Source: a bacterium (GTDB lineage: Bacteria; Desulfobacterota; Deferrisomatia; Deferrisomatales; BM512). Taken from it: 64,000 nucleotides of DNA. Positions 48,231 through 60,715 of this stretch are shown here, one piece after another. The stretch is taken from contig SCTA01000040.1 in assembly GCA_004322275.1 (NCBI GenBank), positions 70,138 through 134,137 on the forward strand. Direction: 5' to 3'. The position numbers were made by a program, and so were the translations under genes. Numbering within the stretch: the stretch's first letter is position 1; each line of letters opens with the position of its first letter. The notes below the pieces were generated by a model that saw only the letters and a program-made list of their open reading frames with translations, ran no database searches and had not been told where the DNA came from.

Positions 48231-50081
48231 TTAAGCCGCTTTCGCCACACGTTCCGCTTCTTCGACGGAGACGGCCTTGACCTTCTTGTCGCGAAGCGTG
48301 AGAGTCAGGGCGGCGCCCACCATCAGGAGAACGCCTGCGGTGATGAAGCCGAGGTCAAAAGAGCCGGTGGTGGCCTTCAGCATCTCGCTGACCCTGCCCA
48401 TCACGAAGCCGCCGATGCCCCACGCGGTGAAGAGAGCGCCGTAGTTGATGCCGAAATTCTTGAGGCCCCAGAGGTCCTTCGCGAAAGAGGGGAAGAGGCT
48501 CAGGTTGGTGCCGTAGTTAAAGCCGATGGCGGAGGCCAGAAGCACCAGCATGATGGCGCTGGGGGACTTGGAGCTGACCACGGGGATTGCTACGAACATA
48601 AGGGCTGCCTGTACGGAGAGCATTATAAAAAGGGTGTTGGCCCTGCCGATCTTGTCGGAAACCATTCCGGCGATGATTCTGCCGGCGGCATTGCCTATCG
48701 CCATAAGCGCGACGGCCAGGAAGGCCATTTCGCCCATGGAGGCTTTCGCCATGCCGGAGATCGAGCCGATAACCATGAGCCCCGCGCCGGAACCGACGAA
48801 GAAAGCGGTCCAGAGGGTGTAGAAGGGCACTGTGCGGATAATCTGGGAAGGAGTCGCGTCCACGGTGGCGGCGGCCTTCTTGGTGGCGGCGGCGTTAGCG
48901 TTGCTCATCGAGCCTTCCGGCACGTAACCCTTGGGGGGGTTGACCAGCAGCATGGAGAGCGCGCTTACCACGGCGGTGAAGGCGATGCCGTAGATAAGCA
49001 TGGATTTCTGGACGCCGTAGTGATTCAGCAGATAGTTGGAAAGGGGCGCGATGTAGACGGAGGCGAGGCCGAAACCGCTGACCACTATGCCCGCGATGAC
49101 GCCGGTTTTCGCCGGGGGAAACCACTTGAGGGCGGGCGGGGTGGCGGCGCAGTAGCCGAAGCCGATGCCCATTCCCGCGAGGCCGCCGAAGCCGAGAACC
49201 CACATCCAGTAGCTGGTCGTTGTAGAGACGAGAATAAAACCTGCTCCGACCAGAAGACCGCCGACGAGGGCGGTGAGGCGCGGCCCGAAGCGATCCTGAA
49301 CCCTGCCCGCGATAATCATCGCTACGGCGAAGACCAGACAGCAGACGGCGTAAGGGTCGTTGATGGAGGCGAGATCCCAGTTGAACTCTCCGCCCTTTTC
49401 GATGGAGGCCTTGATCGCTCCCTTGAAGATCGACCAGGCGTAAAGGATTCCCAGCGCCAGGTTTATGCCTGTGCCGGCCAGCGCGACTGTCCAGCCCTTG
49501 CTGATTTTACTCATCTTCTCTCTCCCTTTGGTTTGATATTCCTGTTTGACTTCTTTTCTCTCAAATTCCAGGGGCGCCTTCACCTCTTCGGGTTCGACGC
49601 CCGCTTCCAAACCGTCGAAAAGCGCTTCAACCGTCTTTTTAAGCCTGCGGGATTCCTCAAGGATGATGTTGACGAACTTCTGCCGGGTGGCCGAATCCCT
49701 GTCGGGGTGGGCGGCCAGTATCTCGGCGGAAGACATAATCGCCGTAAGGGGGGTTCTAAGCTCGTGCTGGAGCACGCCTCTGGCGACCTCGGAGGAGGCC
49801 GCGCCGCGCAGGGTGGGACGGGGGGAAATTCTTGCGGGTTCTTTGGGAGAAGGAGCCATGCCGCTCCACTTCTCCGCGAGCATCGTGTAGCGGGAGCAGT
49901 TCTGGTGGCGGCCGTTGCAGAAGCGGACCATCGTCTCTACGTCGTGAACCGAAGAATCGGGACCGCCGACGTCGCACCACCCCTCGCGGCCGAAGAAGCG
50001 GCACACCGCCCCTTTCGCCGTTTTTGCTTCGCTGGTTGTAGAAGAGTTCGCCGTGGCCAATTTCATTCCTCCCAAGCGCAT
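48231..50081 (-). CDS. OFA-family MFS transporter in frame with a HisKA-like N-terminal extension
   Basis: One uninterrupted 616-codon frame. Residues ~190-600 are a 12-helix MFS transporter of the oxalate/formate antiporter group (K-G-W-T-V-A-L-A-G-T-G-I-N-L at the start of its first helix). Residues 1-189 are unrelated to transporters: four cysteines (C27, C36, C55, C62), then a histidine-kinase dimerisation helix pair with L-Q-H-E-L-R-T-P-L-T (H106). No HATPase domain follows. The internal ATG at 49514 has a good ribosome site (AAAGGGAGAGAGAAG), so the transporter may also be made alone. At the upstream end ATG 50081, ATG 50066 and TTG 50060 compete; GGAGG fits the TTG best. The substrate is unknown; oxalate, formate or another organic anion is possible. 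Confidence 0.75.
   Translation of the reverse strand: MRLGGMKLATANSSTTSEAKTAKGAVCRFFGREGWCDVGGPDSSVHDVETMVRFCNGRHQNCSRYTMLAEKWSGMAPSPKEPARISPRPTLRGAASSEVARGVLQHELRTPLTAIMSSAEILAAHPDRDSATRQKFVNIILEESRRLKKTVEALFDGLEAGVEPEEVKAPLEFERKEVKQEYQTKGREKMSKISKGWTVALAGTGINLALGILYAWSIFKGAIKASIEKGGEFNWDLASINDPYAVCCLVFAVAMIIAGRVQDRFGPRLTALVGGLLVGAGFILVSTTTSYWMWVLGFGGLAGMGIGFGYCAATPPALKWFPPAKTGVIAGIVVSGFGLASVYIAPLSNYLLNHYGVQKSMLIYGIAFTAVVSALSMLLVNPPKGYVPEGSMSNANAAATKKAAATVDATPSQIIRTVPFYTLWTAFFVGSGAGLMVIGSISGMAKASMGEMAFLAVALMAIGNAAGRIIAGMVSDKIGRANTLFIMLSVQAALMFVAIPVVSSKSPSAIMLVLLASAIGFNYGTNLSLFPSFAKDLWGLKNFGINYGALFTAWGIGGFVMGRVSEMLKATTGSFDLGFITAGVLLMVGAALTLTLRDKKVKAVSVEEAERVAKAA
49514..49529 (-). promoter_or_regulatory. 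Internal ribosome site for a stand-alone OFA transporter
   Basis: On the minus strand, AAAGGGAGAGAGAAG immediately precedes ATG 49514, which matches the usual first codon of OFA transporters. It offers an independent start within the 616-codon frame. Confidence 0.55.
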
Positions 50082-50497: not shown

Positions 50498-50827
50498 ATG
50501 AAGGTGGAAATAATCCGGTGCCAGCAAACAGAGGATATTTGCCCCGGAACGATGGACTTCACGGTTGCGGCCGGAGGTCAAAAGGCGTTCGAGGAGACCG
50601 GGCCGGTGGAGATCATGGGGTTCGTGTCCTGTGGCGGGTGTCCGGGAAAGAGGGCGGTCGCCAGGGCCAAAATGCTTGTGGACCGGGGCGCGGAAGCGGT
50701 TGTTCTTGCATCGTGCATAGGCAAAGGCACCCCGATGGGGTTTCCCTGCCCGCACTTCTCACAGATGGCGGATGCAATCCGTAGACGGTTGGGGTCCGAA
50801 GCAAGACTAATTGACTGGACACACTGA
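50498..50827 (+). CDS. CGGC-domain putative metal-binding protein
   Basis: A 109-residue protein matching the CGGC domain family. The naming motif lies in F-V-S-C-G-G-C-P-G-K (residues ~44-53). Further cysteines are C8 (I-R-C-Q-Q-T), C15, C73 (L-A-S-C-I-G-K-G) and C84 (F-P-C-P-H-F). The family is thought to bind metal through these residues; its activity is unknown. AAGGAGG lies seven bases before the ATG. It is a single gene, oriented against the large operon that ends at 50910. Confidence 0.85.
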   Translation: MKVEIIRCQQTEDICPGTMDFTVAAGGQKAFEETGPVEIMGFVSCGGCPGKRAVARAKMLVDRGAEAVVLASCIGKGTPMGFPCPHFSQMADAIRRRLGSEARLIDWTH

Positions 50828-50909: not shown

Positions 50910-51260
50910 CTAATACTCGCTCCCGTCTTCATCCGCTTCATCTTCGATGGCGGCCTCTTCGTCGCCCTCCTCGAACGCTCCTTCGGGGGCGCAGGCGCTA
51001 AGTTCTCGTTTTTCTTTCCAGGCGGAGTAGCCGACCCAGAGGAAGTAGACGGTGAAAACGGCGATCACCACTGATTCGGCTATCCAGAAGGGAGCCCCGG
51101 CGAGGGGAAAGCCGAGCTTCTTGAAGATGACGACGGGGGCGAGAACGCCGATGACGAGTCCGGGAACGCCCATGACGACGCGGATTTTCGCGACCTTTAC
51201 GGGGTCGAGCCCGCCGGTGGCGTTTTTCAGGTCAAGGTCAGTAACGGTTTTTCGTCCCAA
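50910..51260 (-). CDS. Small membrane protein with acidic tail (last gene of the Ycf46 operon)
   Basis: A 116-residue protein with two hydrophobic helices (about 28-48 and 57-77) and a strongly acidic C-terminal tail (E-E-G-D-E-E-A-A-I-E-D-E). The frame starts at TTG 51260 and overlaps the Hsp70-like gene by 34 bases; a later start near V-K-V-A-K-I-R cannot be excluded. The layout of two helices plus acid tail resembles the other small membrane protein of the operon (56547-56834). It could be a membrane anchor for the ATPases, which is inference. Confidence 0.6.
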   Translation of the reverse strand: MGRKTVTDLDLKNATGGLDPVKVAKIRVVMGVPGLVIGVLAPVVIFKKLGFPLAGAPFWIAESVVIAVFTVYFLWVGYSAWKEKRELSACAPEGAFEEGDEEAAIEDEADEDGSEY

Positions 51261-52663
51261 ATTATCTTGTCCTCTCTAAGGTCTTTGGCCGTGCAGGTAA
51301 GCCTTTTCAAATTGTCTACCTTGAATTCGAGAAGCAGCCGCCTCTCGCCCACTCTCCCCGGAGGGCTGAGCGGTATCACGAAGGGCTCCGCTATAAGCTC
51401 GTGTACGTCGTCGGATCGGGAGGTTACGAAACTTATCTTGCCGTCGTCGCCGATGATTATCTCGCGGCTTCCGATGTCCTCGGTGGATTTTCCGGTGCGG
51501 TAAAGCTGGAGGTGAAGCTCGTACTGGCCGTCGTAATAGGTGTTTACGATGTAGCGCGCGGTGGGAAAGCGCGTCGGGTAGCGGGTGTAGCGCTCCACGA
51601 CCAGCTGGTGGTGGTATTGGCCGGTAATCGGGTCCCTGACCTTCATCGAATAGCTCTGGCGGATCATGTCGTCCGCCGGGCGGTCTACGAGAAAGCCGAG
51701 GCCTCCGAGCCCCGCCGCTGTCTCCGGTATCTCTCCGAATATCTTATCCCCGAAATTCTTGACGAGTATGGCGCGGACGGCGGGTATGCGCGTCGCCCCT
51801 CCGATGAGGCAGACCTTCTTCACGCTATCCTTATCGATTCCTCTCGCCTGCGCTTCCTCCCAGAGCCTGTCGAGGAGCCTCTGGGTGGTGGCGCCGAGGT
51901 CTTCGCGCTGGGCGTACTCGTAGAACTCCTCGTCGGTCATAGAGGTTTCGTGGAGGACGAGTTTCTTTCCCCCGTCATCCCGCAGCCGCTGGCGGTTAAG
52001 CTCTTCGATTATTTTCTGCTTTATGTCCGCCGTTCCTACCGGGTACATCGCAGAGGCGCGCACCACGGGAACGGTGTAGGACTCCCGTCCCAGCCAGTGG
52101 AACTGGACGAGGCGCGCCCGGATGGAGGAGAAACCGAAATCGAAAAAGACGTTAAGGTCGTCCTTGAAAAGGTCCAACCCGTAGCCGAGCGCGACGGCGG
52201 TGTCTTCGTCAACAAGCGATATCGACCGGGCGTCGGAGAGGGTGACCGTCTTGATCCAGTTGACGAACTCCTCGCCCTCGAAGGTCGGGCAGATTATTAC
52301 GATGTCGAGGTAGGTGCCGGTCTCTTTTTTCAGCCTCCTCACCAGTTCGTTGAGGTAGAGAGAGGCGGCCTCCTTGTGGGTCACCTTTCTGCCCTCGACA
52401 AGCTGTCCCAGGGGGGCGGCGTGCATGATGTGGTCCTTGAGGTCGCGGAAGGTCGATTCGAGATCGTACTTTCCCTCGCTCGTGACCTCTTCGCCGATAA
52501 AAACCCCCTCCCCCGCGAGGTTTACTATGGAGGGAACCAGCAGCGCGTTAGAACTGAGCGGATGCTCCCTCGCGGCTGTGCGCAGGAGACCGGCCACTTC
52601 GAGGTTATCTCCTCCGAAGGTGAGTATGGTGTTGTAGTTGCCGAGGTCGATGGTCAGATTCAC
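51227..52663 (-). CDS. Reduced Hsp70-family ATPase
   Basis: A 478-residue actin-fold ATPase of the Hsp70 superfamily. Phosphate-1 reads L-T-I-D-L-G-N-Y-N-T where DnaK has a G-T-T-N-S loop, phosphate-2 is F-D-F-G-F-S-S, and the adenosine motif is L-I-G-G-A-T-R-I-P-A-V-R. The connect-1 region V-D-E-D-T-A-V-A-L-G-Y-G is well kept. The ~110 residues after the nucleotide domain look like a shortened beta-sandwich, and the helical lid of DnaK is absent. No grpE or dnaJ is near. It lies 18 bases after a HEAT-type gene and is likely to work with the Ycf46-like AAA+ protein of the same operon. Confidence 0.85.
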   Translation of the reverse strand: MNLTIDLGNYNTILTFGGDNLEVAGLLRTAAREHPLSSNALLVPSIVNLAGEGVFIGEEVTSEGKYDLESTFRDLKDHIMHAAPLGQLVEGRKVTHKEAASLYLNELVRRLKKETGTYLDIVIICPTFEGEEFVNWIKTVTLSDARSISLVDEDTAVALGYGLDLFKDDLNVFFDFGFSSIRARLVQFHWLGRESYTVPVVRASAMYPVGTADIKQKIIEELNRQRLRDDGGKKLVLHETSMTDEEFYEYAQREDLGATTQRLLDRLWEEAQARGIDKDSVKKVCLIGGATRIPAVRAILVKNFGDKIFGEIPETAAGLGGLGFLVDRPADDMIRQSYSMKVRDPITGQYHHQLVVERYTRYPTRFPTARYIVNTYYDGQYELHLQLYRTGKSTEDIGSREIIIGDDGKISFVTSRSDDVHELIAEPFVIPLSPPGRVGERRLLLEFKVDNLKRLTCTAKDLREDKIIWDEKPLLTLT

Positions 52664-52681
52664 TTATAACCCTTTCGCAAA

Positions 52682-54442
52682 TTACAACTTCTCGATTAGA
52701 ACGATATCGCCGCGCTGCCCGCCGCCCTCCATCCAGACGACGATATCCTTGCACTCGCTCATCAGTTTAACCCTGGCGGAGGAAAATGAACCTAGAATCC
52801 TCGCCGCAAGGGGGCCGTCACGGGGAATCGTCGATTCCACGGAGTCAAGCTCGCTGAGGAACCTGTCGTCCTTCCCTTCTATCCACCGGCGGACGCTGCC
52901 ATCGAGGGAGCGCATGATGAGACGCTGAATTCCGCCCCTGTGGAGCCCCGATTCCGACCAGAAAAGCTCGAACAGAGGCACCGACTCGTCCTCGATGTCG
53001 ATGAAAAGCTCCCATATCCTCGAAAGCTCCTCCCGTATCGTGGAGTGCGCGTTGCCGAGCGCTTCGAGGAAGGGCCCGAAGCCGCCGTCCTCCAGCGCCG
53101 AGAATCTCGTCCTCGGGGAAATGACGGCGGGAAATTTCTTCTGCCCGAGGCGCTCTTTGAGCTTTTCCTGAAGGGATTGCAGATCGACGAGGCCGGATTC
53201 GAGGAACCTCCCGACAAGGAGGACGGGATTCAGCTCCGCCGAACGCGATTCCAGCAGGTGCTGCGGGTCCATTATGGCGGTGGCCGCATCCAGCTCGACG
53301 TAGCCCGGCATCCGAAGCAGCTTCATTGCGGCTGTCATGAAACTTGTCGAGGGGGAATTCAGCCAGCCCCTTGTCGCGAGGTAGGAGGCGTAGAGATCGT
53401 TTCCTTGAACGAGGCCGAGGAGGTCTTTTTCAGCGCTTTCAAGGGTGAACAGGGTTTTGTTCTGCAAAAGGGCGCGAAGCTCGGCCTTTGAGGGATTCTG
53501 GCGGAGTTTCACGGCCAGCTCGGCCGCGACAGCCGGATCCTGGCAATTCCGGAGGCCCCTGTAGAGCCAGGAATTCTCCGTTTTGACCTCCTGCTTCCAG
53601 AAAACCATCTTTTTCAGCAGCGACCCCGCTTTTGAGCTCTCCATGTTTTTCATGAAGAGGCTGTAGACCTCGGGGCTGTCAAGACTGCTGAGAGGCTCAA
53701 CCATCCAGGGCTGGAGTTCCTTCGCCGCGACCCGCAAGAGCGGCTCTGGCCCCTGCGGAGCGCCCATCTTCGCATAGGAGATGAAGGCGGCTCTCGAAAG
53801 CTCGTGGTTTTTGCCTCCGATAAGCGGCGAAAGCCTCTCGCCGTCCTCCGGATTCCCGATCTTTCCCAGCGCCGTCGCCGCCGCCGCGTCCATCGGCGGC
53901 CCCTGCCGAAGCGCCCTGATAAAGAGCGGGCGGGCCTTGGGATAGGCGAGCTTCGCCAGCGCCTCGAACCCCTCCCAGCGTTCGGTGTGGGGAAGTAAAA
54001 GCTCCCCGGCCCTTTCGCCGCCGATATTGACGAGGGCGTCGGCAACGGCCGGGAAGAGATAGGGGTCATCGACGCATTTTACGAGAAACTCGAAGTATTT
54101 TTCGCTCCGGAGCCTGCTCAGGGCCTCTATGGCTACTCTCGTCACCTTCTCGGGCTTTTTTTCGGGGAGATAGCGCAGGAAATAGCGTTCGGCGTCGGGG
54201 TGCCCCATATGGGAGAGGCCGATCATCAGGGAAAATTTTTCGGGGGAATCGGTTTTGAGGGACCACTCGTTCAGCGCTTCCTGAAGCGCCGGGCCGAGGG
54301 CGAGCCCCCCCAGAAGAATCGCTACGCGGTTCGCGGTCTGGCAGGCGTGGTAGCGTCTTATCTGATCGGGATAGGCAGGGATTCCCTTGTGGAGAATCTC
54401 CTCCAGGAGGTCCCCGAGAGGCCGGTTTATAGTATCCTCCAT
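52682..54442 (-). CDS. Helical-repeat (HEAT-type) protein, operon partner 2
   Basis: A 586-residue soluble protein made of repeated helix pairs, for example E-K-V-T-R-V-A-I-E-A-L-S-R-L and A-A-A-T-A-L-G-K-I-G-N-P-E-D-G. These are typical of HEAT/armadillo scaffolds in the N-terminal ~300 residues; the rest is helical without a clear repeat. There is no enzyme motif, signal peptide or membrane segment. ATG 54442 is chosen (M-E-D-T-I-N-R-P-L-G-D-L-L), seven bases after the DUF2997 stop. It probably acts as a scaffold linking the AAA+ and Hsp70-like proteins; this is inference. Confidence 0.7.
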   Translation of the reverse strand: MEDTINRPLGDLLEEILHKGIPAYPDQIRRYHACQTANRVAILLGGLALGPALQEALNEWSLKTDSPEKFSLMIGLSHMGHPDAERYFLRYLPEKKPEKVTRVAIEALSRLRSEKYFEFLVKCVDDPYLFPAVADALVNIGGERAGELLLPHTERWEGFEALAKLAYPKARPLFIRALRQGPPMDAAAATALGKIGNPEDGERLSPLIGGKNHELSRAAFISYAKMGAPQGPEPLLRVAAKELQPWMVEPLSSLDSPEVYSLFMKNMESSKAGSLLKKMVFWKQEVKTENSWLYRGLRNCQDPAVAAELAVKLRQNPSKAELRALLQNKTLFTLESAEKDLLGLVQGNDLYASYLATRGWLNSPSTSFMTAAMKLLRMPGYVELDAATAIMDPQHLLESRSAELNPVLLVGRFLESGLVDLQSLQEKLKERLGQKKFPAVISPRTRFSALEDGGFGPFLEALGNAHSTIREELSRIWELFIDIEDESVPLFELFWSESGLHRGGIQRLIMRSLDGSVRRWIEGKDDRFLSELDSVESTIPRDGPLAARILGSFSSARVKLMSECKDIVVWMEGGGQRGDIVLIEKL

Positions 54443-54449
54443 CAGGACA

Positions 54450-54644
54450 CTACGCTTTATCTTTGATACGCTGGCTCTCCGTGGTCTCCTGCTGGTAGTA
54501 CTCGGAGGTGAACTCCCTGTCGACCTCACCCCCGAGGAGCCGCTCCATCTCGGCGGTGAGCTGGAGGCACTTTGGCCCCTTGGCGCCGAAGACGGTGAGC
54601 TTGACGTTGCCCTTCTCGTCGATTGTTACTTTGATTTCTTCCAC
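54450..54644 (-). CDS. DUF2997 peptide
   Basis: A 64-residue protein that fits the DUF2997 family: a beta hairpin start (I-K-V-T-I-D-E-K-G-N-V-K-L), then G-A-K-G-P-K-C-L-Q-L-T-A-E-M-E, then an E-Y-Y-Q-Q-E-T tail. The function is unknown. It lies one base after the DUF1257 gene. I recall the DUF1257-DUF2997 pairing from cyanobacterial genomes, unverified here. Its small size and charged tail suggest a subunit or adaptor rather than an enzyme. Confidence 0.75.
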   Translation of the reverse strand: MEEIKVTIDEKGNVKLTVFGAKGPKCLQLTAEMERLLGGEVDREFTSEYYQQETTESQRIKDKA

Positions 54645-54645
54645 G

Positions 54646-55020
54646 CTAACTTCTCCGCATGGTTAAGTGTAACTCGTTTCCCTGCTTCGTCTCTTCGACC
54701 AGCGTGTAGTTGTCGATCTTGAGCTGCTCTTTGACTACCTCGGTAGCGTAACGTCTCGTGACTTCGGCGATAAAGGACTCCTGGCTGATGGATTTGATCA
54801 TGTCCCAGTCGGCGACCACCTCGTAGGTGTCGCCCGCCTTCCGAAAACCGATGTCGTAGCCGTCCGGGGTGCTGATTCTGAGCTCGACCTCCATCTTCTT
54901 GCCCATGTAGCCGCGAATCTTTACCTTGCCCTCCTTGTGCTGGAGGTTGAGTTCGCCAAGAGCCCTCTTGAGGTAAAGCATATCGACGATTCTGGTCTTA
55001 ACCCTGGTGAAGTGGGACAT
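54646..55020 (-). CDS. Ycf35-like DUF1257 protein
   Basis: A 124-residue protein of the DUF1257/Ycf35 family, otherwise known from cyanobacteria and plastid genomes. The start M-S-H-F-T-R-V-K-T-R-I is characteristic. Beta strands R-G-Y-M-G-K-K-M-E-V-E-L and D-I-G-F-R-K follow, then D-W-D-M-I and R-Y-A-T-E-V-V-K. ATG 55020 is set by AAGGAG seven bases upstream. The longer frame to 55119 overlaps the ATPase gene and is rejected. The function is unknown. Confidence 0.85.
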   Translation of the reverse strand: MSHFTRVKTRIVDMLYLKRALGELNLQHKEGKVKIRGYMGKKMEVELRISTPDGYDIGFRKAGDTYEVVADWDMIKSISQESFIAEVTRRYATEVVKEQLKIDNYTLVEETKQGNELHLTMRRS

Positions 55021-55048
55021 CAGCTCACTCCTTGTATTCCCGCCGGAT

Positions 55049-56539
55049 TCATTTGTTGTCTTTGTTGGCCCTGCGAGTGCGCTCGGAGGCCCAGTCGCGG
55101 AGTTTCTCGATCCTCTCATGCATCAGCTTGCTGATCGGAATGACCTCCTTCACCCCCTGGCAGACGTCCTCGGTGGAGAATTCGCGCTCCCCATCGTCGA
55201 AGGCGTTGTACATGGCGTTTATAATCCCCTGCTCTATCTCGGCGCCGGAAAAACCGCTGGTCGCGCCGGCCAGCTTGGGAATGTCGAAGTTCCTGACCAC
55301 GGGACGCACCTTGGAGAGGTGGACGCGGAAGATCTCGACGCGCTCTTCGTAGTTCGGAAGGTCGACGAAGAATATCTCGTCGAAGCGCCCCTTGCGCATC
55401 AGTTCGGGAGGCAGGTTGGCTATGTCGTTGCCGGTGGCGATGACGAAAACCGGCTTGGTCTTCTCCTGCATCCAGGTGAGGAAGGTGCCGAAGACGCGGG
55501 CGGAGGTGCCGGAATCCCCGGCGCTGACGACGCTTGAGAAGGCCTTTTCAATCTCGTCGATCCACAGGATGCAGGGCGAGATGGCCTCGGCCAGAAGCAG
55601 CGCCTTTCTGATGCGCTCCTCGGATTCGCCCACGAGGCTGCCGAAGACCTTGCCGAGATCCATGCGCAGGAGCGGCAGGCGCCAGAGGGCGGAAGTGGCT
55701 TTCGCGGTGAGGCTCTTTCCCGTGCCCTGCACGCCGATTATCAGTATCCCCTTGGGGTCGGGCAGGCCGTATTCCTTGGCCCTGCTGGAAAAGGCCTTGT
55801 CGCGCTTTTTCAGCCATTCCTTGAGGTTGTCCAGCCCGCCGATGTCGCTTATCTTTTCCCGCGTGGGGAAAAACTCCAGCACCTCGTCCTTCTTGATTAT
55901 CTTCTGCTTTTCCGAAAGGACCAGGGTTATCGCCGACTGGTCGATGACCTCGTGCTTGAGGACGGATTTCAGAAAAACCCCCCTCGCCTGATTCTCCGTG
56001 AGGCCGAGGGCTGATTTGACCAGTTTCTCCTCCGACTCCTTGTTAAGGTCCACCTTCACCCCTCGCGATTCGCAGAGGGTATGGAGCAGATTTGAAAGGG
56101 TGTCGTAATCCGGGAGCGGCAAGAAGACCTGAGGAACGTCGTCGCGAACTTCAAGGGGGAGTTTGAAGAAGGGCGAGAGGAGAATAAGCGTCTTGCGGCT
56201 CGCCCGGAGGGAGTAGACCAGATTCCGTAGCATGCGCACTACGACGGGCTCCTCGAAATAGGGGTGGAAATCGAGGATGAGAAAGATGCCCTCGCCCTTG
56301 TAGGCTTCTATCCTCTGAAGGGCCGTGAGGGGGTCCATCCTTCCCTCTTCAAGCGGGTTGGCCCCCTCGCCCTCCCTGCGGAAACCCATGACGGAGTTCC
56401 AGACGAAGAGGTCTCTGTTTTTAAGATCCCCCGCGACCTGTTTGACAAGGTCCCTCGCCCTCGCCTCCTCTCCGGTTACAAGCGAGATGATAGGCTGACG
56501 CGATCTGATCAGTATGTCCAGCTCTTCTCTTATTTCCAT
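55049..56539 (-). CDS. Ycf46-like AAA+ ATPase
   Basis: A 496-residue AAA+ protein. The C-terminal ATPase has Walker A G-V-Q-G-T-G-K-S (269-276), Walker B L-W-I-D-E-I (325-330), sensor 1 A-T-G-N-D (368-372), an arginine-finger region [10 protein letters not shown] and sensor 2 helix G-F-S-G-A-E-I-E. The first ~210 residues resemble a degenerate P-loop domain (I-F-L-I-L-D-F-H at 85-92; Walker A lost), as in Ycf46 of cyanobacteria and red-algal plastids. It is the likely motor of the operon, acting as a hexameric remodelling ATPase. The target is unknown. Confidence 0.9.
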
Positions 56540-56546
56540 CGTTCCC

Positions 56547-56834
56547 TCAATCGGCGTTTTCGTCTTCGTCGCCTTCGTCCGGGTAGAGGTTCATTACCCG
56601 CAGGCGGGCCAGAGTAAAAAAACTTACAACAACGGCGATGGCTATAGCTACCGAGAAATTTCCAACGGAAAGGTCAACCAGCCCCGAACGGTTGAAAAGA
56701 TAGGAGATGAATCCCAGGGCCACCACCATCAGCGCCGCGACCGGCAAGAGGCAGGAAAAGGTTTCGCAGGCTCTCCCGACGGTTTCCATGCCGAAGAAAG
56801 CCAGCAGTCCGTTTTTGTTCCCTTCCTTAGCCAT
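56547..56834 (-). CDS. Small two-helix membrane protein with acidic tail
   Basis: A 95-residue protein with helices at about 26-46 (L-L-P-V-A-A-L-M-V-V) and 58-75 (F-S-V-A-I-A-I-A-V-V), ending in P-D-E-G-D-E-D-E-N-A-D. It lies seven bases before the Ycf46-like gene and 63 bases after the HD-GYP gene. Function is unknown. Its layout mirrors the 116-residue membrane protein at the operon end, so the two may form paired membrane anchors. Confidence 0.7.
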   Translation of the reverse strand: MAKEGNKNGLLAFFGMETVGRACETFSCLLPVAALMVVALGFISYLFNRSGLVDLSVGNFSVAIAIAVVVSFFTLARLRVMNLYPDEGDEDENAD

Positions 56835-56897
56835 GTCAATCCTCCGCTAGAGATGTCGCCACGTCAGGCGGATTAATATAAAGCTAAAAAGCGATTT

Positions 56898-58178
56898 TCA
56901 TTCATCCAGCATATCTTCGACCGACTCTATATCGGGAGTCCTGGGCATTGAGAGATCCATTATCTCTCCTCCGTCCGCGATTTCGATCAGGGGCTGGAGG
57001 GCGTCGTACTCCCCGTCAGCGAGGACTACGGCGCGGCTGCCGTCTGAGAGCTTAACGTGCCTGCCGGGCACTATCACGCCGGTGAGCCTCGCGAAGACCG
57101 ACACGAAGACGGGGTGAAGCCTGTTGGCCCGCGACTCCTTAATGAGGACGCTCATCGCCCCGGCGGGAGTATAGGCGCTGGGCTGATAGGGACGGACTGT
57201 GCGAATGGCGTCGAAGGTGTCGGAAACCGCCACCAGCATAGCCGCGGGATGCGGGGTGGACTGGACCGGCAGTTTCGGGTAACCGCTTCCGTCCACCCTC
57301 ATGTGGTGCTCGAAGGCTATGACCGGCACTATGGGCGACATCTCACCCTTCATGTTCATGATTATGGCGGCGCCGTCCACGGGGTGGCGGTTTATTACCT
57401 CGCGCTCCTCGTCGCTCAGCCTTCCCGGCTTGTGGAGCACCTCCAGCGGAATCTTTTCCTTGCCTACGTCGTGGCAGATGGCGCCGATGGCTACGGCGTC
57501 CACGAGCCCCTCGGGAAGGTCCATTCTTCTCGCGACGGCGATGGATAGCGCCGCGACGTTCATCGCGTGGGTGAATGTGTATTCGTCGTAATCCTTCAGC
57601 TCCATTATGGGGCTGAAAATGTCCTGACCCGCCATAACGTGGCCGGAAATTAGCCTTGTTATCTCTCTCGCCCTCACCCAGGCGCCCTTTCGCCCTTCGC
57701 GGATGTCGGACATCATCTCCTGCACCCTGGGCATAAGGGTCAGGTAGCCGGTGGGAGCGTTCAGCCCCTTCTCTTCTTCCTCGTCCTCTTCGTCGAGGTT
57801 TATTGACCCGGCTACGAAACCGACGGTGCTGAAGGAGCCGGGCTCCCCCTCCTTGAGGCGAAGCATGACTTCCAGAAAGCCGCGAACTCCTATTTCCGGC
57901 AAAAAGCGCACCGAGTCCCACTGCATGGCTTTAAAGGCTTCGAGTATCTTTTCGAGTTGCTTGGGCACGGGGCTGAGGACTTCGTTTTCGATGACCACCT
58001 CTTCGCCCATGCGGGAAATTCGTATCGGCTTTTGAAATTCCCGGAGGCATTCCGCGCACCTGTCCGCCGCCGTCTGGACGTGGGGATTGCCGGAGGGGTA
58101 CATCCGGTAGGCCTGATAGAGCCTGCCAAGCTCCAGCATGAACCTTCCGAGAATCGCTTTTTCGTCTACCGCGCTCAA
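56898..58178 (-). CDS. HD-GYP domain protein (putative c-di-GMP phosphodiesterase)
   Basis: A 426-residue protein. Residues ~1-130 share a Y-P-x-G-x-P-containing helical plus beta domain with the neighbouring upstream gene. Residues ~190-360 are an HD-GYP domain: I-C-H-D-V-G-K-E-K-I-P, R-H-P-V-D-G-A, E-H-H-M-R-V-D-G-S-G-Y-P, and D-T-F-D-A-I. All metal and GYP residues are kept, so c-di-GMP hydrolysis to GMP/pGpG is plausible. The TTG start at 58178 overlaps the upstream stop (TTGA), showing translational coupling. No membrane segment is seen. It ties the operon to nucleotide second-messenger signalling. Confidence 0.88.
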   Translation of the reverse strand: MSAVDEKAILGRFMLELGRLYQAYRMYPSGNPHVQTAADRCAECLREFQKPIRISRMGEEVVIENEVLSPVPKQLEKILEAFKAMQWDSVRFLPEIGVRGFLEVMLRLKEGEPGSFSTVGFVAGSINLDEEDEEEEKGLNAPTGYLTLMPRVQEMMSDIREGRKGAWVRAREITRLISGHVMAGQDIFSPIMELKDYDEYTFTHAMNVAALSIAVARRMDLPEGLVDAVAIGAICHDVGKEKIPLEVLHKPGRLSDEEREVINRHPVDGAAIIMNMKGEMSPIVPVIAFEHHMRVDGSGYPKLPVQSTPHPAAMLVAVSDTFDAIRTVRPYQPSAYTPAGAMSVLIKESRANRLHPVFVSVFARLTGVIVPGRHVKLSDGSRAVVLADGEYDALQPLIEIADGGEIMDLSMPRTPDIESVEDMLDE

Positions 58179-59974
58179 TTGTACTTCATCCTGTCGGAGA
58201 TGCTTTTGGCAAGCTGCTTTTCTTCCAGGAATCTGCCGGATTCAAACTGAAAGTTCTGTAGCGCCCGAAACCCTCTCTCCCCCATAAAAGCCATCGCGCG
58301 CAGGGCTTCTCTCCTGACCTGGGGCTTTTCGTGGTCGAGTTGGGCCATTATAAAGGGAAACGCCCTCTGATCCCCGATTCTTCCGAGGATTATCATGCAG
58401 TTTCTCATGAAATACCAAATGCTCCCCCGCGCCTTCCGCACAATCACGGGGGCGGAATTGCTGGAAAAGTGGCACATCAGCTCGACGAGGAAGCGGCGCA
58501 CCGAAAGCCGCTCTTCCATGAGGAGGGTCCGAAGGCCCACTTCGAGTATCTCGGACTCGTGCCTCGCCGCGAACCCTATCACGCGCCTTTTCGTATCTAC
58601 CGCGTAGTCTTTTATATCGGGCACGACCTTGCGGAAAAAGATCTCCATAACGTCGTTCCTCCCAACCAGGGCGTCGGGAACGGCGTTGTCCACCATTTCG
58701 AGAAAGCTCATGATACCGAAGCTGTCCATGTCGGCGAGGCGCTCGGTGATGCGTTCCGCCAGCTGCGATTCGCTGCCTTGAACGTTGTAGAGGGATATCC
58801 CTATCATTACGTGGTCGAGGTGCATCTCGGCGTCCTCGAACATTCCGAAGGCGGCGCCCCTTTCTCCCTCTATTTTAAGCCGCGAGGCCATCCTGTCCAG
58901 GGTCTCACGGTATCCCTTCCCCATGTACTTGTTTTCGTCGAAGTCCACGAGGAAGGATTCGACCCACTCCCAGACCTCCGAAGGGTAGCCGGAGGAAGAA
59001 TCGCTCTGTTTTCTATCCCCAGCGAGCGCGGCGATTGCGAGCATGGCGTCGTTGCCGAGAAAAGACTTCGCGAAGGAGCTGATTCTGGCTTCTTTGTCGC
59101 CGCCGAGGGAGACGAGTCCGGCGAGGAGATCGGCCATCTTTTCCCCGTCAACGAGTTGCATCAGAAAGGAGAGGGATTCGCCGGTGCCGGTGGAGTCGGA
59201 GAGGAGCACGTCTACCAGCCGGGCGAGGTGCTCCGAATCGAGGCCCGCGCCGAGCCTGGCAAGCTGCTGGCCTATTTCCTCGCGCCTGTCCTCGGGTATC
59301 ATGCGAAGAGCCCTGTCAAGCATGGAGCCGAGGCGGGCGAAGATCTGGCTAAGTTCCCTGAAGCTTTCCGGAGCGCCGTCGAAGGTCGTCTGCCAGAATT
59401 CCGGCGAGGAGAGCACCCGCGCCATGTCCTTGGGGCTTCCGCTCTCGGACTGGAGCCAAAGCCACATCTCCCGGCGCTTTTTCAGGGCGGCCTCTTCGTC
59501 GCCGACGCTTTCGGAGGCTTCGAGGGTCATCTGGTCGTGAATGGCTCCGAGGTCGAGCGGAACCAGCTGGATGTTCACGACCCCGTCGTTTTCGAGCGCC
59601 GAGATTATGTTTTCCCCGGCTATGTTCCTGTCGCCCAGCCTCGCGGCGACCAGATAGACCTCCGAGGAAGAGAGGCCGGGACCGAAGGAAATTCTCGCTA
59701 TCTTTCTCGAATTGAGGAATCTGGCCAGAAGCTCGGCGCGGCTCTCCTTGCCCCCGAAGAATTCGCCTCCCACCACCAGTTCGCTGCTCGTAACGCCTAT
59801 GGAGAGGTCTTCGTGACCCTTTTGCCCGGACCACGAGACTACCCGGTCGGCCATCTTGTTCATCTGGGGATGCCCCTGAGGATAGATGGCGACGGTGCGC
59901 ACGAGAAGCATGATATCTCGCGCGAGGGTCTCTACTTCCGCTCTCAGCTCTTCTTTGTCTCTGGGCGTTTCCAT
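58175..59974 (-). CDS. Helical-repeat (HEAT-type) protein, operon partner 1
   Basis: A 599-residue protein. Residues ~1-130 have the same domain as the HD-GYP protein (V-A-I-Y-P-Q-G-H-P-Q-M; L-S-I-G-V-T-S-S-E-L-V-V-G-G). The middle is helical with few motifs. The last ~150 residues contain clear HEAT repeats (R-R-F-L-V-E-L-M; I-L-G-R-I-G-D-Q-R-A-F-P; R-R-E-A-L-R-A-M-A-F-M-G). No enzyme motif is present. The gene begins 20 bases after recR, probably the first unit of the shared transcript. A scaffold or sensor role is inference. Confidence 0.7.
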   Translation of the reverse strand: METPRDKEELRAEVETLARDIMLLVRTVAIYPQGHPQMNKMADRVVSWSGQKGHEDLSIGVTSSELVVGGEFFGGKESRAELLARFLNSRKIARISFGPGLSSSEVYLVAARLGDRNIAGENIISALENDGVVNIQLVPLDLGAIHDQMTLEASESVGDEEAALKKRREMWLWLQSESGSPKDMARVLSSPEFWQTTFDGAPESFRELSQIFARLGSMLDRALRMIPEDRREEIGQQLARLGAGLDSEHLARLVDVLLSDSTGTGESLSFLMQLVDGEKMADLLAGLVSLGGDKEARISSFAKSFLGNDAMLAIAALAGDRKQSDSSSGYPSEVWEWVESFLVDFDENKYMGKGYRETLDRMASRLKIEGERGAAFGMFEDAEMHLDHVMIGISLYNVQGSESQLAERITERLADMDSFGIMSFLEMVDNAVPDALVGRNDVMEIFFRKVVPDIKDYAVDTKRRVIGFAARHESEILEVGLRTLLMEERLSVRRFLVELMCHFSSNSAPVIVRKARGSIWYFMRNCMIILGRIGDQRAFPFIMAQLDHEKPQVRREALRAMAFMGERGFRALQNFQFESGRFLEEKQLAKSISDRMKYN

Positions 59975-59994
59975 GATTTCGCTTTGAGTTTCCG

Positions 59995-60588
59995 TCAGTA
60001 AGCGCTTCGGCCGTCGAGAGCCCGCCCGAGGGTAAGCGCGTCGGCGTATTCGAGGTCTCCGCCCATTGGAATGCCGCGCGCGATCCTCGTAACCTTTACG
60101 TTCAGCGACCCGAGCGCCCGCTTGACGTAGAGGGCGGTGGCCTCTCCGTCAACGCTCGGGTTGGTCGCCAGAATCACCTCCCGCACGGTGCCGGACTCGA
60201 CCCTTTTTACAAGCTGGGCTACGGTTATCTCGCCGGGACCCACTCCGTCGATAGGGGAGAGCCTTCCCCCGAGCACGTGATAAAGGCCGAAAAAATTTCC
60301 CGCGTTTTCAATGGAAACCAGGCTGACCTGATCCTCCACCACGCAGATGATGCCCCTGTCCCGGCGGCCCGAGGAGCATATTTCGCAGATTTCGCTCTCG
60401 GTCATCGAAAAGCAGTTTTTGCAGGGGCGTATCTTGTCCTTCACCTCCAGCAGGGCCGACGCCAGACCTTCGGCGTTCACCCTGGGGCTCGAAAGGACGT
60501 GCATGGCCAGCCTCGTGGCCGTCTTCTCTCCGACGCCCGGGAGCTTCTTGAATTCCCTGATAAGATTTTTTATCGGTCCCGCTATCAT
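59995..60588 (-). CDS. recR: Recombination protein RecR
   Basis: A 197-residue RecR, partner of RecF/RecO in loading RecA on gapped DNA. The helix-hairpin-helix start L-I-R-E-F-K-K-L-P-G-V-G is followed by a Cys4 zinc finger (C-K-N-C-F...C-E-I-C) and a Toprim domain (I-C-V-V-E-D; N-P-S-V-D-G-E-A-T-A). ATG 60588 is the family start; the extra codons upstream lack homology. It heads the minus-strand series that continues into the HEAT/HD-GYP/Ycf46 genes with only 20 bases between. dnaX or a YbaB homologue, common recR neighbours, is absent here. Confidence 0.96.
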   Translation of the reverse strand: MIAGPIKNLIREFKKLPGVGEKTATRLAMHVLSSPRVNAEGLASALLEVKDKIRPCKNCFSMTESEICEICSSGRRDRGIICVVEDQVSLVSIENAGNFFGLYHVLGGRLSPIDGVGPGEITVAQLVKRVESGTVREVILATNPSVDGEATALYVKRALGSLNVKVTRIARGIPMGGDLEYADALTLGRALDGRSAY

Positions 60589-60715
60589 TCCATAACTTTC
60601 GCCCGGTTTCTTTCCCGGTTCGAGGAGTTTTATCGGCTCACAGTTTACTTGACCGCCACCCCATGCTAAGAGGTACTCTTCTTCCTCCAAAGGAACGCAC
60701 TTAAAGGAGTAAAAA

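Follow-up and report, generated by a model that had tools for sequence, protein, structure and literature searches.

A DUF1257–DUF2997–AAA+ gene module with a lid-less Hsp70 in Deferrisomatales and its recurrence across bacterial and archaeal phyla

The stretch of DNA analysed in this study, hereafter the window, comprises 64,000 nucleotides of contig SCTA01000040.1 from a 2.88-Mb genome of the order Deferrisomatales (phylum Desulfobacterota). Analysis of the window revealed a module of seven genes at positions 50910–56834, in the order TM2–AAA–DUF1257–DUF2997–HEAT2–Hsp70L–TM1. Ycf35 (the DUF1257 family), DUF2997 and Ycf46, which the AAA+ ATPase resembles, are uncharacterised families recorded chiefly in cyanobacteria and algal plastids. 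The core genes are linked, co-occur and share their history across distant genomes, and in all likelihood they constitute one functional system. The seven genes may represent, in its Deferrisomatales form, a chaperone-type module that is widespread and moves horizontally, and in which AAA+ and Hsp70 proteins carry out protein remodelling; judged from what is known of these families, the case for and against this function is evenly balanced.

Genes of the module (window coordinates):
50910..51260, minus strand: TM1, small membrane protein of 116 amino acids with two transmembrane-like stretches, found as part of the module in Deferrisomatales alone
51227..52663, minus strand: Hsp70L, lid-less Hsp70 of 478 amino acids (PF00012, 8e-11) with a nucleotide-binding domain and a substrate-binding beta domain
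52682..54442, minus strand: HEAT2, HEAT-repeat scaffold protein of ~586 amino acids (HEAT_2, 1.7e-13), kept across the order; the start is most likely ATG 54442
54450..54644, minus strand: DUF2997 protein of 64 amino acids (PF11211, 3.4e-14) with a near-invariant GxxGxxC
54646..55020, minus strand: DUF1257 protein (Ycf35 family) of 124 amino acids (PF06868, 4.8e-24) with invariant N-terminal MSHF and VADW
55049..56539, minus strand: AAA+ ATPase (Ycf46-like) of 496 amino acids (PF00004, 1e-29, residues 265-393)
56547..56834, minus strand: TM2, small membrane protein of 95 amino acids with two transmembrane-like stretches, upstream of the AAA+ gene

An earlier reading of the window from its letters (the original prediction) had joined these genes with three more into one ten-gene, membrane-linked machine. 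Its family assignments are borne out by Pfam matches for HSP70, the two HEAT proteins, DUF2997, DUF1257, AAA, HD_5 and RecR, and the DUF1257 and DUF2997 matches lie well above the curated cut-offs (85 vs 22.2 bits and 52.9 vs 24.1 bits, respectively).

Recurrence of the module across genomes

The AAA+/DUF1257/DUF2997 trio was found together at 62 of the 68 distinct non-viral DUF1257 loci. The six exceptions are three short or end-cut contigs (L044, L089, L094), L075, L127 and a Treponema plasmid, where the AAA gene, which is Ycf46-like, lies 54 kb from DUF1257. On that Treponema succinifaciens plasmid, pTRESU01 (L137:8218-8625), DUF1257 lies among the genes of a contractile phage-tail or injection-type cluster. 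The lid-less Hsp70L family joins the trio in no fewer than nine phyla, including archaea, and the gene order is shuffled. The original prediction had proposed that the AAA+/DUF1257/DUF2997/Hsp70-like block be sought in distant genomes, and there it does recur: in Bacteroidota, Nitrospirota, Verrucomicrobiota, Planctomycetota, Cloacimonadota, Actinomycetota, two archaeal groups and a cyanobacterial plasmid. Scanning 84,980 species yielded 36 loci, and those with Hsp70L beside or near the trio include Bacteroidia, Nitrospirota, Verrucomicrobiota, Nanoarchaeia, Cloacimonadota, Methanoregula and Planctomycetota; in Actinomadura Hsp70L lies ~10 kb beyond the trio.

Comparison of gene orders revealed that AAA–DUF1257–DUF2997–HEAT2–Hsp70L is kept in all four families of the window's order. 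Elsewhere in the phylum the order is Hsp70L–AAA–DUF1257–DUF2997 (families f12 and f45) or DUF1257–AAA–DUF2997–Hsp70L (f36), and on the Pseudanabaena plasmid it is WD40 protein – GrpE – Hsp70 – DUF1257 – ATPase – DUF2997 – AAA. One isolate filed as Deferrisomatales (locus L063, the same contig as genome G006) belongs to the window's order; 'bacterium D1FMe1.002' is the closest relative found.

Co-occurrence and shared history of the core

The Hsp70L family, called at >250 bits (next best 193; DnaK ~131 or less), is present in 25 of 395 genomes of the phylum, and 22 of these 25 also have DUF1257; the Fisher p of 3e-23 should be taken as indicative, since the test treats species as independent and they are not. 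Contig ends cut G009 and G374, two of the three remaining genomes, and in the third, G393, there is a fragment that begins at base 5 of its contig.

Every Hsp70L-bearing locus falls into one supported group of the AAA tree (95/88) that ignores taxonomy. Two subgroups of this tree, Nanoarchaeia–Delongbacteria–Cloacimonadota and Nitrospirota–Desulfobacterota f36/f25–BMS3Bbin14, recur in the trees of Hsp70L and of a NrdG-like partner protein described below; the Hsp70L comparison covers the members that have the gene, Delongbacteria and f25 having no Hsp70L at these loci. The Bacteroidia–Desulfomonile grouping of the AAA tree likewise recurs in the Hsp70L tree. The gene trees thus share cross-phylum groupings and therefore the set moves as one, the finer details of the trees being unsure because of several long-branch rows and because support in two of the trees comes from the Shimodaira–Hasegawa-like approximate likelihood-ratio test only.

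Motifs and structure of the module proteins

Hsp70L matches the DnaK profile over both domains, with the beta-domain match at profile positions 388-415 and 459-491. The solved structure closest to it is 2v7y, a DnaK chain of 509 residues only. The helical lid is missing and the aligned sequences end after the beta domain; the description 'lid-less' in the original prediction is correct, because the protein stops after the substrate-binding beta domain. The window's protein retains all four catalytic residues, D, K, E and D (IDLGNYNT, LKDHI, LVDED and FFDFG). At L020, L021 and L045 (f12, f45) a pseudo-Hsp70 stays in the module, and no NrdG-like partner was found in these families.

In the AAA+ protein the Walker A, Walker B, sensor 1 and arginine finger motifs are intact in the C-terminal AAA domain. 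The N-terminal half, as read from the sequence, is probably a degenerate AAA domain, and the PDB search gave two stretches that match CDC48/p97. In NCBIfam and the PDB the protein matches CDC48/p97, not ClpB. No Ycf46 model was among the matches, and the cyanobacterial AAA+ proteins in the tree are plasmid proteins encoded beside DUF1257/DUF2997.

In the DUF1257 protein MSHF and VADW were found to be invariant in 34 of 34 rows, and in the GxxGxxC motif of DUF2997 each of G20, G23 and C26 occurs in 30 of 31 sequences. The predicted DUF1257 fold is confident (predicted local distance difference test, pLDDT, 93.8; predicted template modelling score, pTM, 0.85), and its comparison with PDB folds gave no convincing relative (best E 0.027, template modelling score ~0.3-0.4). 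The DUF2997 model is weak (pLDDT 71) and its fold search gave no usable match. PDB sequence searches with both proteins gave no homologue.

TM1 and TM2 match no Pfam family above the cut-off. Both have acid tails in this genome, as the original prediction had noted, and the tail of TM1 is not conserved in other families. TM1 homologues directly follow Hsp70L in other families of the order, wherever they can be called. Since the membrane peptides were found in Deferrisomatales only, a membrane link of the module in general is not supported.

The viral DUF2997–DUF1257 pair

Our analysis identified 415 DUF1257 relatives in the viral collection. In cyanophage P-SSM2 (L136:4802-5381) the DUF2997 gene (PSSM2_178) overlaps the DUF1257 gene (PSSM2_179), and among the 80 viral contigs that match DUF1257 best (marine; L153-L232), 76 have an adjoining or overlapping pair. 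No AAA, Hsp70L or NrdG-like gene was found in the examined stretches of these 80 contigs. As viral contigs carry just this pair, DUF1257–DUF2997 appears to be the minimal unit, and the two proteins presumably form a complex. The phage-borne pair further suggests viral exploitation of the same machine. The original prediction had missed this pair, as well as the NrdG-like protein and the GrpE partner described next.

Partner genes

A NrdG-like 4Fe-4S radical S-adenosylmethionine (SAM) protein with an intact CxxxCxxC motif is encoded next to or near the module at 12 loci and, beyond the window's own group, is adjacent at the majority of Hsp70L loci. It is also part of Hsp70-less plasmid cassettes in Paenibacillus (AAA–DUF1257–DUF2997–4Fe-4S) and, in a similar form, in Paenarthrobacter. 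The protein carries a Fer4_12 domain and is longer than the NrdG model (~195 amino acids vs 154 positions). NrdG is its best NCBIfam match, with six of six tested proteins below the NrdG cut-off (88-119 bits vs 126). Its identity with the activase of class III ribonucleotide reductase was ruled out, because nrdD has its own activase-like neighbour. Within Deferrisomatales the NrdG-like gene adjoins the module in G008 and lies directly downstream of TM2 in genus g6. The window's genome has a divergent relative on another contig, and genomes of the same family without the module are also without the NrdG-like gene.

GrpE adjoins Hsp70L at three distant loci and is not in the window's cluster. 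The scaffold-type neighbours of the module vary between HEAT, WD40, HEAT plus WD40 and FGE-sulfatase domains. Proteins with an FGE-sulfatase-like domain, which described bacterial conflict systems also employ, stand beside the module at L042, L070, L087 and L097. A direct-repeat scan (>=60 bases) of four loci with FGE-domain proteins found repeats that gave no sign of a diversity-generating retroelement, reverse transcriptase not having been searched for. On the Geminocystis plasmid pGM3709_04 (L139) genes for RloB, an ATPase and a zeta-toxin are interleaved with DUF1257-DUF2997-AAA, an arrangement that suggests a defence or addiction island.

Proposed function and alternative explanations

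If the module is a chaperone-type machine, DUF1257 and DUF2997 would form a small complex with the role of an adaptor or cofactor for the AAA+ ring. Hsp70 would bind the client and be recharged by GrpE where GrpE is present, while HEAT, WD40 or FGE-type proteins may help to select the client. ATP hydrolysis by the AAA+ protein would then remodel the client in a ClpB-DnaK-like manner, and the membrane peptides would tether the machine, in Deferrisomatales only. Under this scheme the client would most likely be an iron-sulphur or radical protein under stress. We offer this identification tentatively, on the hint given by the frequent 4Fe-4S partner. A wider proposal, possible though speculative, is that of an undescribed bacterial and archaeal machine in which a Ycf46-type AAA+ ring acting via a DUF1257-DUF2997 heterodimer, together with a lid-less Hsp70 and a single-4Fe-4S radical-SAM partner, would remodel or re-arm radical or iron-sulphur proteins; oxygenic phototrophs would keep a reduced form with the ferredoxin Fed7, and cyanophages would use the two small subunits that they carry to steer the host machine. 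That Ycf35, Ycf46 and DUF2997 occur in one mobile unit alongside a radical-SAM protein, GrpE and Hsp70 provides a concrete and testable biochemical hypothesis for these long-standing unknowns, for which the Paenibacillus and Pseudanabaena plasmid cassettes are suitably small systems.

Several observations weigh against remodelling by AAA+ and Hsp70. The glycine-rich phosphate loop GGGT of Hsp70L is altered in Deferrisomatales (GFSS in the window), and the Hsp70L of f12/f45 is without the catalytic motifs. The AAA+ pore loop departs from the usual aromatic–hydrophobic–glycine pattern: it is SLVG/SLLG and contains no aromatic residue. Among the cluster genes scanned, none encodes a J-domain protein. 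Hsp70 is non-essential to the trio, because the trio occurs without it at many loci (most Planctomycetota; families f10/f51/f58), and G005 has a second Hsp70L paralogue away from any module. In the window's order the NrdG-like gene is mostly elsewhere in the genome.

The main rival explanation is a nucleoside triphosphate-dependent conflict system, for immunity or self-recognition, in which the trio and Hsp70/GrpE would be the engine and the WD40, HEAT and FGE-sulfatase-like proteins the sensors or effectors. The patchy distribution (37 of 395 genomes), the cross-phylum transfer and the plasmid locations are consistent with it, as are the AAA_21-type ATPases, RloB and zeta-toxin genes that adjoin some loci and the carriage of two subunits by phages; a fixed core with varying WD40, HEAT or FGE-domain partners also follows the grammar described in PMC7159879. 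In the window's order, however, the module is vertical and conserved, with AAA+ proteins 79-94% identical and no changing effector. No recurring nuclease, toxin or pore domain was found, and PADLOC matches were limited to generic AAA (IetA) and weak HEAT models. The near-constant presence of DUF2997-ycf35-fed7 in tabulated cyanobacteria (PMC4284462) and of ycf35/ycf46 in many red-algal plastids (PMC5940233) also counts against it, and we regard this explanation as rather unlikely.

Alternatively, the NrdG-like protein could be the business end of a factor dedicated to activating or repairing a 4Fe-4S or glycyl-radical enzyme, with the AAA+ and Hsp70 proteins loading or resetting it. Its frequency at Hsp70L loci, its place in cassettes that have no Hsp70, its distinctness from the genome's class III activase and its position after TM2 in g6 point this way. 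Against it, no constant target enzyme stands beside the NrdG-like gene, the gene is absent from f12/f45 and most Planctomycetota loci, and the Deferrisomatales proteins are divergent (~150 bits vs 230-265). We consider this explanation doubtful.

Borders of the module in the window

The ten minus-strand open reading frames proposed originally as one operon span 50910-60597 and are tightly packed at the positions given for them, with gaps, from recR to TM1, of 20, -4, 63, 7, 28, 1, 4, 18 and -34 bases. The three genes outside the module are as follows.

56898..58178, minus strand: HD-GYP protein (HD_5, 3e-21), part of a separate HEAT1-HD-GYP unit
58175..59974, minus strand: HEAT1 (HEAT_2, 3e-6), partner of the HD-GYP gene
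59995..60588, minus strand: recR, housekeeping neighbour (RecR domains; TIGR00615, 7e-72)

Analysis of relatives revealed that HEAT1 and HD-GYP adjoin after recR in G002, G003 and G004, genomes of the same family without DUF1257 or the module, and that the pair also stands together at unrelated loci in G005, G008 and G009. recR keeps its position in relatives that have no module, and the module of other families in the order has no recR, HEAT1 or HD-GYP; the join is specific to the window's genus. The ten genes are therefore two units, since each occurs without the other, and the single module of the original prediction stands for the seven genes and not for its borders. Because HEAT1 and HD-GYP belong to another unit, the proposed control by cyclic di-GMP is unfounded. 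Synteny thus rules out a single ten-gene operon under such control, and a ten-gene membrane-linked machine of this kind is very improbable despite the tight packing of all ten genes in the window's genus, given also that the membrane peptides were found in the order only. A chance run of genes without common function describes the join with recR/HEAT1/HD-GYP and is refuted for the seven genes by core recurrence, co-occurrence and shared trees, so that its likelihood as an overall explanation is negligible. Promoter and terminator scans gave signal no better than shuffles.

Just after the module, a CGGC-domain protein is encoded on the opposite strand (50498-50827). At 48231-50081 an MFS transporter, OxlT-like by eye, is fused in one frame with an N-terminal HisKA phospho-acceptor domain, an unusual fusion.

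Comparison with known systems

In the literature covered, with subscription papers and supplements outside its scope, no paper was found that links Ycf35/Ycf46/DUF2997 with Hsp70 or a NrdG-like protein. The NrdG-like partner shares the Fer4_12 domain and CxxxCxxC with the NrdG activase, whereas its scores lie below the family cut-off and no nrdD was seen at module loci. The GTPase-centric HSP70/GrpE and MoxR-vWA conflict systems (PMC7159879) resemble the module in their Hsp70/GrpE, AAA+ chaperones, beta-propeller and FGS-type domains and mobile clusters. Unlike them, the module had no TRAFAC GTPase, tubulin, MoxR, vWA or VMAP among the genes scanned, and its AAA+ protein is of another family; DUF1257 and Ycf46 are unmentioned in that paper. 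The ClpB/Hsp104-DnaK(GrpE/DnaJ) bichaperone likewise combines an AAA+ ring ATPase with Hsp70, and GrpE is present at some module loci. It differs in that the AAA+ protein of the module is CDC48/p97-like, its Hsp70 has no lid, no J-protein was seen, and the two small DUF proteins have no counterpart in the bichaperone.

The remaining comparison is with cyanobacteria. In Synechocystis DUF2997–ycf35–fed7 is a conserved cluster ('cluster g'). Fed7, its [4Fe-4S] ferredoxin, binds a DnaJ-like protein and is required during iron starvation and during metal or oxidative stress (PMC4284462). According to a passage in PMC7496141 (citing Jiang 2015), Ycf46 (slr0374) is encoded in a stress operon, and CO2 use is affected by the loss of Ycf46; the slr0374 operon and fed7 both respond to iron starvation and other stresses. 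In red-algal plastids the loss of ycf35/ycf46 correlates with freshwater habitat (PMC5940233). The cyanobacterial operon differs from the module in that no Hsp70, HEAT or membrane genes are described for it, Ycf46 is in another operon and the 4Fe-4S partner is a ferredoxin instead of a radical-SAM protein. The two have in common the same pair of DUF families side by side and a single-[4Fe-4S] partner.

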